Under the pieces are notes generated by a model. That model made no database searches. It was not told the origin of the DNA and saw only the letters and a program-made list of their open reading frames with translations. From Botrimarina mediterranea (GTDB lineage Bacteria; Planctomycetota; Planctomycetia; Pirellulales; Lacipirellulaceae), in contig NZ_CP036349.1 of assembly GCF_007753265.1 (NCBI RefSeq), forward strand, positions 4,621,363 through 4,685,362: a stretch of DNA of 64,000 nt. Reading direction: 5' to 3'. The translations under genes were made by a program, and so were the position numbers. The first letter of the stretch is position 1; the number at the start of each line of letters is the position of its first letter. This document shows positions 50,778 through 56,296 of this stretch, piece by piece.

Positions 50778-52567
50778 TTCGCCGAAACGGGTAGTGGGAC
50801 CGCTTCGGGGCTGCGGCCGTTGATGCGGTCGAATTGCCGCTTGTTGCTTACCGTCACGAAGAACCCGATGACCGCGTAGAAACCCAGACCAAGCGCGTAC
50901 GAGGCGACGACTTCGTCGGGCGGTCCGGACGACTCGGCGCCCACGAGCATGGGGAATGCGATTAGGAACGGCGCAAGCGGAGGGGCGACGAAGATCGCAA
51001 AGTCGTTATCGCTCCACCCTCCGACCGCCGCGAAAGTAAACCCGAGGAGTGAATAGAAGACGCCGATCGCCAGCAAGACAAACATCGTCGCCGCGATCGC
51101 CTTGATGGAGTTCTTCATCCGCATCGAGACCGCCAGCCCGATGGCCGTCGCCGCCCACGACAGCAGCGCGAGCGAAGTGATGACGCCGAGGGTTGAGAGC
51201 AACGCCTGGATCTCGATCATGGCGCCTAGCAACGGGATCAGCGCCAATCCGATCAGCGGCCAGCGGTAGGCGTAGAGGTTGCCCCACGTCTTCGCGGAGA
51301 CGATCGCTGTGCTGTCCAGCGGGGTCGAGAGCAACGACACGAGCGTGTCGCGTTCGTGCTCGTAGGTCACCAGCCCCGCCGCACGGCTGCCGATCAGTAG
51401 CACGAGGATCGAGCCGCACGTCGTGACGATCCCGGTGGCGACGCCCATGTACGTCTCGAAATCCACCCGCCACTCGCCCGTAATGACGCCGTAGAGCATC
51501 ACCGCGAACGGAGAACCCGCGGCGATCAGCAGCACCGCCACGCCCAACCTCGCCACCCACTTCTTCGTGCCCGACTTGCGGACCGACGCGGCGAACATCT
51601 CCTTCCACAGCATCGGGCGATTCTCGTAGGGCGAACGCGAAGCGGCCGAGCCCGTCGTGGCCTTGAGCCTGACGCCCGGCTTCGCGGCCGCTCGCAGGTG
51701 GACCTTCCGCACCATGGCGACGCACACCCCCAGCAGCACCGTCGCCGCGACGAAGTGAAGCAGGACCATCCGCGCGATCGCCCAGCGGTCGAGGTCGATG
51801 CCCAGCACCGACCCCAACACGCCGGACGATTGGAAGAGCATCATCAGCGGATGGACGGCCGCCATCGCCTGGATCGTCGGCATCAGGACGCTGGTGTTGA
51901 ACCAGTCCGCCCACGGCGTCTGCCGGAACATCAGCAAGGAGCTAATAAAGAACGCCATCGGCAGCGCGACGATCCAAGCAAACACCGCCCCGATGGCGCG
52001 GGGCACGGCGTCGCGCGCCCGCTCGCACCACACGCCGACCGTCAGCGCAATCGCGGCGGTGAGCGTTGCGGTGCTGGCGAGCATCGCGAAGTGCGTCAGC
52101 AACAGCGCGCCGGGCACGCCCCCCAGCAGGCGGAAGATGGCGAGCACCGGCAGCGTGGCGAGCACCAACTTCGCGACCACCAGCAGCCGCGCGACGATCT
52201 TGTCGAGCACGATCTCCGCGTTCGACAGATCGGTGGCGAAGAGGTATTCGATCGTGCGCCGCTCACGCTCGGTGGCGATCGCCCCCGCGACAATGGCGGG
52301 GGTGATCAACAGCACGCCGAGCATCGTCGCCCAGGCGAACATGACGTAAAACGTCGATGACAGCATCGCCGCGCCAGAGATCGACATCCGCCCGGCGCCA
52401 TCGACGGCATTGTAGCCCTGTTGGAACCGGGTCTGCTCGTAGACCGACAGATAGCCCATCGCCAAGAGCAACAGCATCCCGACGCCCACCAGGACGCGAA
52501 CCCAGAAGTACCGCCGCTTCCGCCCGGCGGCGAGCATCTCATGGCGAAAGACGGGGCCGAGGGGCAT
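50741..52567 (-). CDS. Two-half ABC-2 type transporter permease
   Basis: A 608-aa polytopic protein with two ABC-2-like halves. Each has the sequence after the first span: ATERERRTIEYLFATDLSN near residue 98 and YEHERDTLVSLLSTPLDST near residue 400, with about 12 hydrophobic helices overall. No ATPase gene is adjacent. The same architecture as the permease at 1044-2699 suggests paralogues. The gene is convergent with the LysM gene, with a 37-bp tail overlap. Its start follows a C-rich palindromic arm (plus-strand 52570-52607), not a Shine-Dalgarno. Confidence 0.82.
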   Translation of the reverse strand: MPLGPVFRHEMLAAGRKRRYFWVRVLVGVGMLLLLAMGYLSVYEQTRFQQGYNAVDGAGRMSISGAAMLSSTFYVMFAWATMLGVLLITPAIVAGAIATERERRTIEYLFATDLSNAEIVLDKIVARLLVVAKLVLATLPVLAIFRLLGGVPGALLLTHFAMLASTATLTAAIALTVGVWCERARDAVPRAIGAVFAWIVALPMAFFISSLLMFRQTPWADWFNTSVLMPTIQAMAAVHPLMMLFQSSGVLGSVLGIDLDRWAIARMVLLHFVAATVLLGVCVAMVRKVHLRAAAKPGVRLKATTGSAASRSPYENRPMLWKEMFAASVRKSGTKKWVARLGVAVLLIAAGSPFAVMLYGVITGEWRVDFETYMGVATGIVTTCGSILVLLIGSRAAGLVTYEHERDTLVSLLSTPLDSTAIVSAKTWGNLYAYRWPLIGLALIPLLGAMIEIQALLSTLGVITSLALLSWAATAIGLAVSMRMKNSIKAIAATMFVLLAIGVFYSLLGFTFAAVGGWSDNDFAIFVAPPLAPFLIAFPMLVGAESSGPPDEVVASYALGLGFYAVIGFFVTVSNKRQFDRINGRSPEAVPLPVSANHQPLASQANSC

Positions 52568-52569
52568 GG

Positions 52570-52672
52570 GGGGAGGGGCTAGGGGCTAGGGATGGGGGAC
52601 GAGGGAAGTATAAGCATACTGGTCCCCTCGTCCCCCGTCCCTAACCCCTCGTCCCTAACCCCTCGTCTCTCG
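52570..52672. repeat. GGGGCTAGGGACGAGG-word palindrome
   Basis: The left arm 52570-52607 (GGAGGGGCTAGGGGCTAGGG..) faces the right arm 52624-52672, made of CCCCTCGTCCCTAA words. It shares vocabulary with 5790-5924 and with the single arm at 57636-57673. It fills the space between cysE and the permease start. Confidence 0.8.
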
Positions 52673-52675
52673 CCG

Positions 52676-53644
52676 TCAGGCGCTCGCCGCTGCGTCGTCG
52701 GAGCGGACGCGGAGCTTAGGCTTTTCGATCACGATCGTTGAGTGGGGGCCGACGCTCTTGGTGAGCCAGACGCTCGAACCGATCACCGAGTCGTGGCCGA
52801 CGGTCGTGTCGCCGCCGAGGATTGTCGCGTTGGCGTAGATCACGACGCGGTCCTCGATCGTCGGGTGCCGCTTGGTGTTGCGCACCAGGTTGCCGTCGTC
52901 GTCGGTCGGGAACGACAGCGCGCCGAGCGTCACGCCTTGGTAGAGCTTCACGTGCTCGCCAATGTGGCACGTCTCGCCGATCACGACGCCCGTGCCGTGG
53001 TCGATGAAGAAGTACGGCCCGATTGTCGCGCCCGGGTGGATGTCGATGCCGGTGCGGCCGTGGGCCCACTCGGTCATCATCCGCGGGACAAACGGGATAT
53101 CGAGTTCGTACAACAGGTGCGCAAGTCGATAGACGGTTATCGCCTCGAGGCCCGGGTAGCAGAAGATGACTTCATCGGGCCCTTTGCACGCCGGGTCGCC
53201 GAGGTAGGCGGCCTTCACGTCGGTGGCGAGCGTCTCGCGCAGCTCGGGGAGGCGGTCGAGGAACAGCATCGTCTTCGCCTGACCGAGGGCCTCGTAGTCC
53301 TCGGGCGACTCGCACGGGCCGACGACTCCGTCGCCCCCTTCCTCATAGAAACGCTGCGCCTCGTGCTGCAGCGCGCGGCCGATCTGCTTGGTGAGCTTGT
53401 CGTGCAAGCGGTCGAGGAGGTCGCCGATGTAGTAGCCGATGTTGCCGCGGTGGAGCCCCTCCCGCTGGCGGTAGCCGGGGTAGAGGATCTCCATCAAGTC
53501 CTGCACCGCCGAGACGATGTCGCAGTACTTCGGCAGCGGGCAGTGGTCGAGGTGGTTCAGCGTGCCGACGCTGTCATACGTGGCGACGATGCGCTCGGTG
53601 AGCCGGGGCAGGTCGCAGTCTTTGACGCGGGGGTCGGTGGCCAT
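52676..53644 (-). CDS. cysE: Serine O-acetyltransferase
   Basis: From ATG 53644 ([23 protein letters not shown]) the protein has 322 aa; a TTG at 53725 would extend it. A long N-terminal helical domain (about 170 residues) precedes the left-handed beta-helix with hexapeptide repeats: [42 protein letters not shown] and [12 protein letters not shown], then [32 protein letters not shown]. It makes O-acetylserine for cysteine synthesis. A cysteine-rich leader peptide gene lies 131 bp upstream on the same strand. Confidence 0.92.
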
Positions 53645-53775
53645 CGCAGGGCTTCCGTCGGGTGGCGGCTCGCAAAAGGCGGGGGCGAGCGGCGGGGCAA
53701 GCAAAGGGAGGGAAGCGTCGGCCAACTAGCGGACGCTAGCGGCGACGCACGCGGCGGAGACCCGCTCAGTCCTGC

Positions 53776-53835
53776 TTAGAACTGGGCGGGGCCGCTACAC
53801 AGGCAGCCGAGGCAGTTAGGGCTGTGCTTGCTCAT
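53776..53835 (-). CDS. Cysteine-rich leader peptide upstream of cysE
   Basis: A 19-codon ORF, MSKHSPNCLGCLCSGPAQF, with three cysteines in a CxxCxC pattern, ending in TAA. The minus strand has TTGATA, 17 bp, TACGAT, then 7 nt to the ATG, so the mRNA should start at or next to the start codon (leaderless). Cysteine-coding leaderless uORFs of this kind act as attenuators of cysteine biosynthesis genes in mycobacteria; ribosome stalling on Cys codons at low Cys-tRNA would open the downstream region. It is 131 bp upstream of the chosen cysE start. The zinc-binding alternative for CxxCxC is less likely. Confidence 0.6.
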   Translation of the reverse strand: MSKHSPNCLGCLCSGPAQF

Positions 53836-53842
53836 AGCGCGA

Positions 53843-53871
53843 ATCGTAGGCGTACCGCGACCGGATATCAA
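53843..53871 (-). promoter_or_regulatory. Predicted promoter of the cysteine leader/cysE unit
   Basis: Minus-strand -35 TTGATA (53866-53871), 17-bp spacer, -10 TACGAT (53843-53848). A transcription start 7-8 nt downstream falls on the leader ATG at 53835. Confidence 0.55.
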
Positions 53872-53931
53872 CTCGCCAGGGGGAGTATTCGGCGGTCGGC
53901 CGGGGTCGAATGCAGCGATTCTCGGCGGGGC

Positions 53932-54093
53932 GACTCCCGGCGCTGACGCTGAGGGCTCCTCAGAATCTGCTAGCTGATCATCAAGACGCCGTGAACTGCC
54001 GACGGGTTCGCGAGCCATCGGCGCCGGTAATGCCCCAACTCGTTGCTATCCCTCCCACAGCCAGGGAGCCGGTATGCGTTAGCGTTCGGAGTC
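53932..54093. repeat. REP-like inverted pair upstream of the cysE unit
   Basis: Unit 53932-53959 reads on the minus strand as GGAGCCCTCAGCGTCAGCGC..; unit 54065-54093 on the plus strand is GGAGCCGGTATGCGTTAGCG... Both fit the GAGCC...GCG(T/C)TAGCG...CGG REP pattern in opposite orientation. Nothing else is recognised in 53872-54124. Confidence 0.65.
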
Positions 54094-54124
54094 GACGCGA
54101 CAAAAAACCCACCAAGCCGAGACG

Positions 54125-54937
54125 CTACCGCACCACCAACAGCGTCAAGTCATCCGGCTTCGACGGCACGCCAGGCAAGGTCGAGATCATCCGTTCGTGG
54201 GCCGCGTCGGCGAGGCGGCGGGCGGCGTCCATCGCCGTGCCCCGGCGGCTGAGCTGGATCAGCTCGTCGGTGGTGAGGTTGTCGAACAACCCGTCGCTGG
54301 CGACGAGCACCGTGTCGTGCTGCGACAGCTTGACCGCGGGCCCCAGCTCGATGCGTGAGTCGGCCGCGCCGATCACGTTCGACACCACGTGGCGGTCCTC
54401 GTGGTGCATCGCTTCATCGTTCCCGATCAGCCCCGCCTCGACTCCGTAGGCGACCGGGGCGTGGGCGGTGGTCAGCAGCTTGAGCTTGCCGCGCCCGCCG
54501 CACACCAGGACGCCGGCGTCGCCGACGTGGTACGTGCGTGCAAAGTCGCCGTCGGGCCCGCCGATTGAGAACTCGACGATCGCCAGCGTCGTCGCCGCCC
54601 CGCCGCCGATCGCGAGGACGGCCTGGTTCGCCGCTTCGATGCCGTCGATGATCGCGGTGCGGAGTTGGTAGGTCTCACGGTCGGCCAGCGCGAGCGAACG
54701 CTCGAGCGCCTGCACCGCTTTGCGTGACGCGACCTCGCCGAGCGACTGCCCGCCCACGCCGTCCGCCACCACCAGCACGGCCGAGTAGTCGTCCCACGGC
54801 AACAGCGCGGCGGAGTCTTCGTTAGGCGTCTCCTTGCCGGGCGAGCGCGTCGAGAACGCGGCGATCGCGCGGCGACCCAGCCGACCGATCTCGGTGGGGG
54901 TCGTCATCTCGGATTCGTGGAAGCATGTCGCCTGCAT
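54125..54937 (-). CDS. PP2C-family protein phosphatase
   Basis: A 270-aa protein (start ATG 54937; ATG 54907 possible). PPM/PP2C motifs: metal-binding aspartates in KETPNEDSAALL and VLVVADGVGG, YHVGDAGVLV, and the late DTVLVASDGLFDNLTTDELI and PDDLTLLVVR. It dephosphorylates Ser/Thr residues. It follows the kinase gene by 21 bp on the same strand, so the pair is probably one operon of writer and eraser. Confidence 0.9.
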   Translation of the reverse strand: MQATCFHESEMTTPTEIGRLGRRAIAAFSTRSPGKETPNEDSAALLPWDDYSAVLVVADGVGGQSLGEVASRKAVQALERSLALADRETYQLRTAIIDGIEAANQAVLAIGGGAATTLAIVEFSIGGPDGDFARTYHVGDAGVLVCGGRGKLKLLTTAHAPVAYGVEAGLIGNDEAMHHEDRHVVSNVIGAADSRIELGPAVKLSQHDTVLVASDGLFDNLTTDELIQLSRRGTAMDAARRLADAAHERMISTLPGVPSKPDDLTLLVVR

Positions 54938-54958
54938 CGTGCGTCTCGGACGCCAAGG

Positions 54959-56296
54959 TTAACCACCGGTGAGGCTACGCAGCCCCTTCCGACACCACGG
55001 ACAACAGCTCCAGAACTCTCTGACGACGCCCCAACCGCACGCCGCGCAGTTGTCGCTGACGCCCTCGACCTTCCACTTGCGTTTGACCTTGGTGTGGCAC
55101 CACGGGCAGTAACGCATCCAGGGCATCAGCAGCTTACGCTCGCACGCCTTGTTGCCGCAGCGGGCCGAGTAACGCTTGTCGGTAAACTCGCGGCTGGTGG
55201 TGACCTCGAACCCCGGGCCGTAGCACCAGGGGCAGTAGTGCCAGTCGAGCTTCATCCCGCGGTGGCAACGGGGGCACGCCTGCGGGAACTTCGTCTCGTC
55301 CGCGAAGCGCGAGCGGTCCGCCCGGCACCAGGGGCAGAACGCCATCGCCTCGGACACCGGGCCGTCGCAGCGCTCGCACGTGTAGCGCGTATCGAGTTGG
55401 GCGCCGAAGCGGCGTTTGAACTCGACCCGTTGGATCGTCCGCCAGTTCTGTGTCGAAGCGACCGGGCGCTTGCGATTGCCGCGCGACGCGCCGGCGTCGG
55501 ACAGCGCCTTGGCGCCGACCCGCTTCCACGCCCCGCGCATCGCTTCGGCCGTGGCGTAACGACCACCGGGCTCGATCTCGATCGCCCGACGCAACACGGC
55601 GATCGCCTCTTCCTTGAGCACACGCTTGAGCCGTTCGTGCCCCAGCAGCGGCCAGCGGTACGGATACGTCGGCAACTGCCCCGAGAACATCCGCCACAGC
55701 GTCAGCCCCATCGAGAAGACGTCCGACCGCAGCGACGGCGACCCGAGCGCCTGCTCCGGCGCCACGTAGCCGACCGTCCCGGCGCCGGAGCCGCGCAGCG
55801 TCCGCTGCGCGATCCGCGCGATGCCGAAGTCCCCCAGCCGCACCCGGCCGCCGGCGAACAACAGGAAGTTGTCGGGCTTCACGTCGCAATGCGCGATCGA
55901 TAGCTCGTGGGCGTACGCCAGGCCGGCGAGCATCTGGTCGGCGTAGGTGATCGCCGTCTTCGTGGCGAGGCGGCGCTCCAGCCGGTCGCCGAGCGACTCG
56001 ACCGCCAGCGACGTGACGATCACAAACAGCCCGTCGATCACGTCCGCCGACTTCAGTGGCAAGACGTTCGGGTGGTCGAGCGACGCGATCATCCGCACCT
56101 CGCGGCGGAACTGCTCAGTCGCTGCGTCGTCCATCAGGTGCGTGTGCGGCGCCTTGATCGCGACCCGCACGCCCTCGATCGTGTCGCGGGCCTGGTAGAC
56201 GGTGGCGAACCCCCCCTCGGCAAGCCGCTTCTCAATGACGTACTTGCCGAGGCGGCTGCGGGGTCGGAGGCGTTTATCGGCAGGCATGCGGTGCAT
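54959..56296 (-). CDS. Ser/Thr protein kinase with four C-terminal zinc ribbons
   Basis: A 445-aa protein. The Hanks-type kinase covers about residues 18-275: glycine loop LAEGGFATVYQA, lysine K48 (VAIK), the catalytic loop AHCDVKPDN (HCD in place of the usual HRD, so the activation-loop-type arginine is missing), DFG at 156-158 and YVAPEQ. After a basic linker come four CxxC-type ribbon pairs: CERC/CPWC, CPRC/CPWC, CGNKAC/CPWC and CAAC/CPWC, each second half ending CPWC. No transmembrane helix is seen, so it is cytoplasmic, unlike most PASTA kinases. It is paired with the PP2C gene. Confidence 0.85.
   Translation of the reverse strand: MHRMPADKRLRPRSRLGKYVIEKRLAEGGFATVYQARDTIEGVRVAIKAPHTHLMDDAATEQFRREVRMIASLDHPNVLPLKSADVIDGLFVIVTSLAVESLGDRLERRLATKTAITYADQMLAGLAYAHELSIAHCDVKPDNFLLFAGGRVRLGDFGIARIAQRTLRGSGAGTVGYVAPEQALGSPSLRSDVFSMGLTLWRMFSGQLPTYPYRWPLLGHERLKRVLKEEAIAVLRRAIEIEPGGRYATAEAMRGAWKRVGAKALSDAGASRGNRKRPVASTQNWRTIQRVEFKRRFGAQLDTRYTCERCDGPVSEAMAFCPWCRADRSRFADETKFPQACPRCHRGMKLDWHYCPWCYGPGFEVTTSREFTDKRYSARCGNKACERKLLMPWMRYCPWCHTKVKRKWKVEGVSDNCAACGWGVVREFWSCCPWCRKGLRSLTGG

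Follow-up and report, generated by a model that had tools for sequence, protein, structure and literature searches.

The cysE locus and its predicted leader

The window, a 64,000-nucleotide stretch of the Botrimarina mediterranea genome, carries on its minus strand a gene for a cysE-type serine O-acetyltransferase of 322 aa (52676–53644). The assignment rests on matches in relatives and on two NCBIfam models: TIGR01172 matches the window CysE at 3e-47 with 160.7 bits, under the model cut-off of 210.65, and NF041874 scores 150 bits, which equals its cut-off (150). A CysE match is found in 55 of 59 relatives, some of which have a second, weaker match, and among named relatives the closest found is Botrimarina colliarenosi, whose CysE is 93% identical. 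The start of cysE, the ATG at 53644, is conserved: 51 of the 55 matching relatives align from residue 1 or 2 onwards (counted from the alignment rows). A putative Shine–Dalgarno-like GGAAG (53652–53656, minus strand) lies 7 nt 5′ of this ATG.

Upstream of cysE on the same strand is an upstream open reading frame (uORF) of 19 codons (53776–53835) that would encode the leader peptide MSKHSPNCLGCLCSGPAQF; its codons 8, 11 and 13 specify Cys. The original prediction had described this Cys-containing frame, 131 bp ahead of cysE with no intrinsic terminator between the two, and a promoter TTGATA-17-TACGAT 7 nt before the uORF ATG. The sequence and its translation agree with the frame and its three Cys codons, the coordinates agree with the strand and distance, nothing terminator-like was found in the interval in the window, and the hexamers are where they were placed: the −35-like TTGATA at 53866–53871 and the −10-like TACGAT at 53843–53848, both on the minus strand.

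Right behind the cysE stop codon, at 52558–52672, there is an imperfect inverted repeat with arms of 48 nt that are 79% complementary. A search of the genome with its 87-base core yields 71 matches when palindromic places are counted on both strands, and we therefore regard it as a dispersed palindromic, REP- or MITE-like repeat. When 52000–55200 was compared with Rfam at E-values up to 5, no match to the uORF or to the hairpin described below (H1) was found. The 46 hits that were returned all fall on the inverted repeat (∼52574–52656) except for one weak hit inside cysE, and the spurious miRNA hits among them are explained as chance matches to this repeat.

A Cys-rich reading frame is conserved upstream of cysE in Pirellulales

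We collected the regions upstream of cysE from the family of the window (30 regions) and from 20 families of the order Pirellulales (80 regions). Two regions with less than 300 nt upstream were left out, giving 108 of 110. A uORF was scored when it started with ATG, had at most 45 codons, stopped 60–280 nt before cysE and encoded at least two Cys in its last ten residues; controls were 20 rounds of dinucleotide shuffling, the antisense strand, and the region 300–600 nt upstream. Such a uORF is present in 70 of the 108 regions, compared with a shuffled mean of 5.0 (maximum 11) and 0–5% across the controls. With at least three Cys the count is 43 (shuffled mean 0.6, maximum 3) and with at least four it is 23 (shuffled mean 0). 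The antisense strand of the same regions has none in 108, and the region 300–600 nt upstream has two with two Cys and none with three among 78. The candidate Cys-rich uORF before cysE is thus not a product of chance, and the expectation that its Cys codons would be conserved in related genomes is strongly borne out.

Frames with at least three Cys are spread over 13 of the 20 families. Per family label, the rule is positive in 26 of 31 loci in f1, 5 of 5 in f2, 4 of 4 in f12, 11 of 19 in f15, 8 of 10 in f17 and 3 of 3 in f19, with 1 of 16 in f7. By the rule there is no uORF in f6 (one locus), f8 (two), f14 (one) or f16 (two). The 38 rule-negative loci comprise 15 from f7, eight from f15, five from f1 and ten others. 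The rule is blunt: six of these 38 loci do contain the motif, including both f8 loci, and it passes a few frames that look like chance, at L129, L144 and L192 (e.g. MACCNRR). Four extra f1 loci outside the 108 (L111–L114) are all positive, with 3–4 Cys; named contigs L031–L059, which are partly of the same species, were also kept out of the 108.

Farther away, another order of the class (f21) has frames with at least three Cys in 4 of 11 loci, two of the four being near-identical congeners; examples of the f21 peptides are MKFAVCCDCC and MRSILFGALSVGGCCCC, each running to its stop codon. Planctomycete loci from outside the class have none in nine. Loci L060–L110, nearly all labelled Verrucomicrobiota, have two Cys in 6 of 51 and three in 0 of 51, which is about background.

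The predicted frame is itself conserved. Of 55 loci (of 56, with L178 left out), 52 have an ATG in frame ahead of the motif, compared with a shuffled mean of 11.8 (maximum 18) and with 5 and 6 loci in the other two frames. Numbered back from the Pro codon, position −5 is Cys in 50 of 55 loci (TGC 35, TGT 15) and position −3 is Cys in 53 of 55, with TGT in 51 of these 53. In the window these are codon 11 (TGC, 53803–53805) and codon 13 (TGT, 53797–53799), both on the minus strand, and they are the only two of the three Cys codons that are kept within the genus. Both are present in the close congeners L002 and L003 (the window being L001), and L004 has one near the hairpin; Cys codon 8 (53812–53814, minus strand) is absent from the same place in L002–L004. 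The genes of the window use TGC 189 times and TGT 38 times for Cys. One guess is that the bias towards TGT at position −3 comes from slow wobble reading of this codon. In f1, 22 of 28 loci have Thr (ACN) at codon −2, and neither this preference nor that for TGT at −3 is accounted for by the hairpin. A strict need for several Cys codons is unlikely because L024 and L029 have a single Cys codon only, in addition to L004 with its one near the hairpin.

The reading frame ends in a covarying hairpin

The end of the window uORF forms part of a hairpin, H1 (53761–53790, minus strand), identified by folding and by covariation of its core in relatives. The segments CCCGC (53790–53786) and CAGUUCU (53784–53778) pair, across a loop at 53777–53774, with AGGACUG (53773–53767) and GCGGG (53765–53761). 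The uORF stop codon (53778–53776) extends into the apical loop, and the 45-nt fold has a predicted energy of −25.9 kcal/mol (z −4.3). This second conserved part of the leader, a hairpin tipped by the stop codon, had been missed in the earlier reading. Typical uORFs end in C-x-C-(T/S)-x-P-A-stop or C-P-(A/V/G)-stop, and the constant Pro-Ala/Val/Gly is explained because these codons are the 5′ arm of the hairpin, with the 3′ arm following the stop, as in GUCCGGUC-uag-GACCGGAC. The core reads GUCCGG/CCGGAC.

Covariation was scored in 42 of the 56 sequences, with the window and weak, long-loop or odd stems left out. In these 42 aligned relatives the seven core pairs are kept in 95.3% of cells compared with 88.1% after shuffling, 15 cells are changed on both sides compared with 2.8, and the covariation score is 0.183 compared with 0.070, counts that are inflated by relatedness and by the choice of a structure drawn from the same sequences. 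None of 500 shuffles reached the observed pairing, double changes or covariation score, and two coarser measures were reached by 19 and 28 of 500. Sliding the partner by 1–3 columns lowers pairing to 22–52%. Taken locus by locus, the stem is of only moderate significance: it scores above 95% of shuffles in 33 of 56 loci and above all 100 in 21, with a mean score of 18.8 compared with 11.7.

In the minimum free energy (MFE) fold, 44 of 56 loci have a stop codon that reaches the apical loop of the hairpin. The loop ranges from 3 to about 45 nt, L013 and L015 have added stems, and the loop of G011 reads UGG. In L001–L004, L013 and L015 the uORF has 2–8 extra codons and the stem is longer, with the stop still at the tip. 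The stop lies beyond the hairpin in L122, L135 and L136, and the MFE fold of nine other loci does not place it at the tip.

Promoters and leaderless spacing

The promoter pair of the window is not significant when taken alone because a pattern scan finds three sigma-70-like matches in 19 kb, this pair among them, compared with 1.7 in shuffles. The −10 hexamer is identical in L002 and L003 and the −35 hexamer is TTGATC in both, at equal spacing. Among the 52 loci scanned (of 56; four without an ATG were left out), the best promoter score upstream of the uORF averages 7.1, compared with 5.3 after shuffling. The distance from the −10 hexamer to the ATG is 6–9 nt in 10 of the 24 loci with a promoter score of at least 8, including the window, although three of the ten belong to one genus; in the remaining loci with such scores the nearest in-frame ATG is 17–71 nt away. 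As judged from these predicted promoters, leaderless spacing is therefore a lineage-specific trait, so that the term leaderless in the original prediction fits the promoter spacing of the window and some relatives but does not hold in general.

A separate promoter-like pattern was seen in nine of 31 family-f1 leaders (L009, L010, L012, L018, L020, L021, L022, L025 and L029), where an ECF-sigma-like GAACC-N13-16-nTGTC pair lies upstream of the uORF. The shuffled mean for this pair is 0.045 (maximum 2), and it occurs in 1 of 79 leaders of other families.

Among the genes tested, the element accompanies cysE

We applied the same uORF test upstream of cysS, cysK and genes of the PAPS-reductase family in 27 relatives, using 25 of 28 fetched cysS loci, 29 of 30 cysK loci and all 30 loci of the PAPS family. 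A uORF was found in 0 of 25, 1 of 29 and 1 of 30, respectively, none with three Cys.

A covariance model built for the element matches 31 sites at E < 0.005 in 59 relatives. By coordinates each of them lies immediately upstream of cysE, with one, at a contig end, placed by translation. Twenty-four of the 31 are loci used in building the model; the other seven are not. The window's own copy is not among the matches at E ≤ 10, owing, we think, to its longer stem. There are about 50 weaker matches (E 0.005 to 1): two, G026:C16 and G021:C396, lie opposite or inside long coding frames, and at least three others, in G051, G007 and G035, are upstream of cysE by coordinates. The region G003:C1:1440200-1442200 lay outside the analysis.

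A proposed model for control of cysE by translation of the leader

We consider it probable that the element is a cis-acting, translation-sensing leader of cysE in which completed translation closes H1 and lowers cysE expression. The promoter would start a short leader transcript, and a ribosome would translate the uORF, which usually has two to four Cys codons in the eight codons before H1, with H1 built from its last codons. When Cys-tRNA is ample, the ribosome would finish and be released at the hairpin tip, allowing H1 to close. When Cys-tRNA is scarce, the ribosome would dwell on the Cys codons with its footprint on the 5′ arm, and H1 would stay open. The footprint of a ribosome is large enough for its leading edge to reach the 5′ arm while the Cys codons are in the A site. 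A ribosome still on the stop codon would also keep H1 open. That closed H1 is the ‘off’ state for cysE is inferred from feedback logic: cysteine would in this way exert feedback on the enzyme at the entry to its biosynthesis.

Comparison among relatives establishes the predicted uORF with its frame and Cys codons, the covarying hairpin with the stop placed at its tip, and the confinement of the element to cysE within the set of genes tested; that the uORF is translated, which way control runs and how the output is produced are inferred. The putative sensor half of the leader is well supported by these comparisons. The earlier proposal of a Cys-codon uORF that regulates cysE is thus partly supported as a whole, with strong conservation behind it, but it had overlooked the hairpin.

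For the output, a loss of transcription between the uORF and cysE through pausing or Rho, as opposed to masking of the cysE start, is, we think, the most likely step. With intrinsic termination, antitermination and start masking unsupported by the results given below, what is left is a transcriptional loss caused by pausing or by Rho, or else decay of the RNA. We would place about one half of the weight on an output at the level of transcription and one fifth on one at the level of translation. More tentatively, and with rather more doubt than belief, we suggest that the Pirellulales cysE leader may be a minimal attenuator of one hairpin, in which the end of the reading frame is the hairpin, the stop codon is its tip, and the structure reads whether the ribosome has completed translation. 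Such a device, if our guarded suggestion is right, would need no antiterminator, terminator U-tract or start-masking structure.

There are two Rho-like genes in the genome of the window (G000:C1:2184693-2185940 and 1367712-1368809), of which one passes the curated cut-off and the other falls short of it. A C-rich leader of the kind associated with Rho was considered and set aside as too weak to count: C exceeds G by 19 over 116 nt of the leader, and in comparison with 31 other leaders of the window this is more than the upper quartile (8.5 per 100 nt) but does not reach the 95% point (28.5).

Alternative outputs and readings

Two alternatives keep the sensor and change the output. In translational attenuation, a stalled ribosome would rearrange the leader and open a masked ribosome-binding site of cysE, an output that the available text of PMC13236596 states for the nearest analogues, the cysteine genes of M. 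smegmatis. The predicted opening of cysE positions −16 to +3, however, is 0.464 in the free leader, 0.468 with the Cys codons blocked and 0.487 with the stop codon blocked (50 of the 56 loci). In these folding predictions the change from free to Cys-blocked has p = 0.91, that from Cys-blocked to stop-blocked p = 0.049, and the leaders have no consistent second structure (49 loci). Masking of the cysE start is therefore not supported, as its predicted opening is independent of the Cys stall; the translation-coupled output raised in the original prediction finds no support from folding, and we consider it unlikely. We hold it equally improbable that H1 is an intrinsic terminator or belongs to a three-part attenuator with a pause hairpin, an antiterminator and a terminator. 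H1 is indeed compact and GC-rich with a mostly short loop, its tail is pyrimidine-rich (72% versus 63%, p = 0.002), regulatory codons followed by a stop are in a trp-like order, and family f1 has a possible second hairpin (mean z −0.75 over 23 loci, summed from rows). Against this, T is not enriched after H1 (31% versus 28%, p = 0.25), and a U-tract of at least five T in 8 nt is present in just 3 of 49 loci; with nothing terminator-like between the uORF and cysE of the window either, intrinsic termination was rejected as a general output. An antiterminator was likewise rejected, since the 3′ arm of H1 is predicted to pair downstream less than in shuffled sequences (0.62 versus 0.69, n = 49). 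Nor do we claim a second hairpin: the region behind H1 has a mean z of −0.29 over 49 of the 56 loci (Stouffer −2.1), equal to that of the last 75 nt before cysE (−0.29), with −0.09 far upstream.

Two further alternatives dispense with Cys-tRNA supply as the signal. The GTCCGG–CCGGAC palindrome could be a DNA operator for a regulator, with its overlap with the uORF accidental; the core is palindromic, lies near the promoter and has strong matches upstream of one gene only. Yet its half-sites change together, the range of loop lengths and the added stems of L013 and L015, which keep the stop at the tip, do not suit an operator, and the Cys codons and in-frame ATG are conserved too, so that this is the least probable of the readings. 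It is also improbable, if less so, that the nascent peptide acts, as an arrest peptide or through a metal- or thiol-binding CxC motif. The CxC spacing is well conserved, as is the Thr at −2 in f1 (22 of 28), but examples such as CCRCCC, CSCCCCRSCC, CLCTSPA and CCDCC show how widely the peptides differ, no relationship is apparent between their N-terminal parts, and the Pro-Ala/Val/Gly follows from the hairpin arm. Sensing of Cys-tRNA supply through translation of the uORF remains our preferred reading.

Relation to known leaders

Candidate Cys leader peptides were described in 2005 for cys operons of Mycobacterium and Propionibacterium acnes and for cbs of Bifidobacterium longum (PMC1262725), where the available text reports no conserved hairpin able to be a terminator and suggests Rho. 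As far as that text describes them, these Actinobacteria leaders resemble the Pirellulales element in having a short ORF with runs of Cys near its stop and a cysteine gene downstream, without a terminator; they differ in that the element here has a covarying hairpin, with the stop at its tip in most motif loci, and belongs to another phylum and another gene, cysE. In mycobacteria, cysteine-responsive, polycysteine leaderless short ORFs were reported by Canestrari et al. 2020 (as cited in the available text of PMC13236596 and PMC9094748), the control of cysteine genes in M. smegmatis is called translational (PMC13236596, same text), and Cys-rich uORFs, one of them before cysA2, are noted in the accessible part of PMC4633059. 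From what these sources give, the likeness lies in a Cys-rich uORF, here a putative cysteine-responsive attenuator, with Cys codons clustered at its end and, for the window, in predicted promoter spacing that would make it leaderless. The mycobacterial ORFs precede several cysteine-related genes, whereas here cysE alone has the element among the four gene groups tested; leaderless spacing varies and a hairpin is added in Pirellulales, and experiments exist only for mycobacteria. By analogy, the Pirellulales element would work like the Cys-codon leader peptides of Actinobacteria. Where it departs from them, by sequence comparison, is in its phylum, in the conserved stop-at-tip hairpin and in being confined to cysE within the genes tested.

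The stop codon of the trp leader sits between arms I and II. In the tna operon, TnaC senses free tryptophan by nascent-chain arrest. There is no evidence here for arrest of the TnaC type; a possible analogy with the tna leader is that a ribosome at the end of the leader ORF controls termination. A tna leader with Rho-dependent termination is mentioned in the available part of PMC1262725. The enterobacterial trp and his attenuators, as outlined in the accessible text of PMC1183508, likewise have regulatory codons followed by a stop, with a ribosome that gates pairing of the leader RNA, but they have a II:III partner and a III:IV terminator with a U-tract, neither of which was found here.

In the open-licence literature, searched mostly by listings, we came across no account of a leader peptide or attenuator for cysteine in planctomycetes, and no paper on Pirellula with cysE and a leader; PMC4833913 counts leader genes in Planctomycetes, and the word cysteine is absent from its available text. 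The present comparison indicates a Cys-codon leader in most sampled families of one order, at the entry step of cysteine synthesis, and that Cys-codon leaders occur outside Actinobacteria. It suggests that Pirellulales may use the speed of Cys-codon reading to set cysteine production. The element is a compact, testable case of apparent translation-sensing control in a little-studied phylum, and its one-hairpin anatomy raises the question of attenuator function without the standard terminator and antiterminator pair.

Variant leaders

Some Cys-rich uORFs, with 3–7 Cys, have no significant stop hairpin (p of 0.06 or more). They belong to some members of f9, f13, f15, f18 and f21, the hairpin-poor loci being L116, L117, L118, L121, L126, L174–L176, L179, L210, L211 and L215. 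Perhaps these polycysteine uORFs are a second layout, with more Cys codons replacing the hairpin. In f7, 15 of the 16 cysE loci (e.g. L138–L147) are without a recognisable Cys uORF, pointing to loss or to another mode of control. Finally, between H1 and cysE, the L028 leader carries tandem copies of a GACGTCAGGGATTTAG-like unit.
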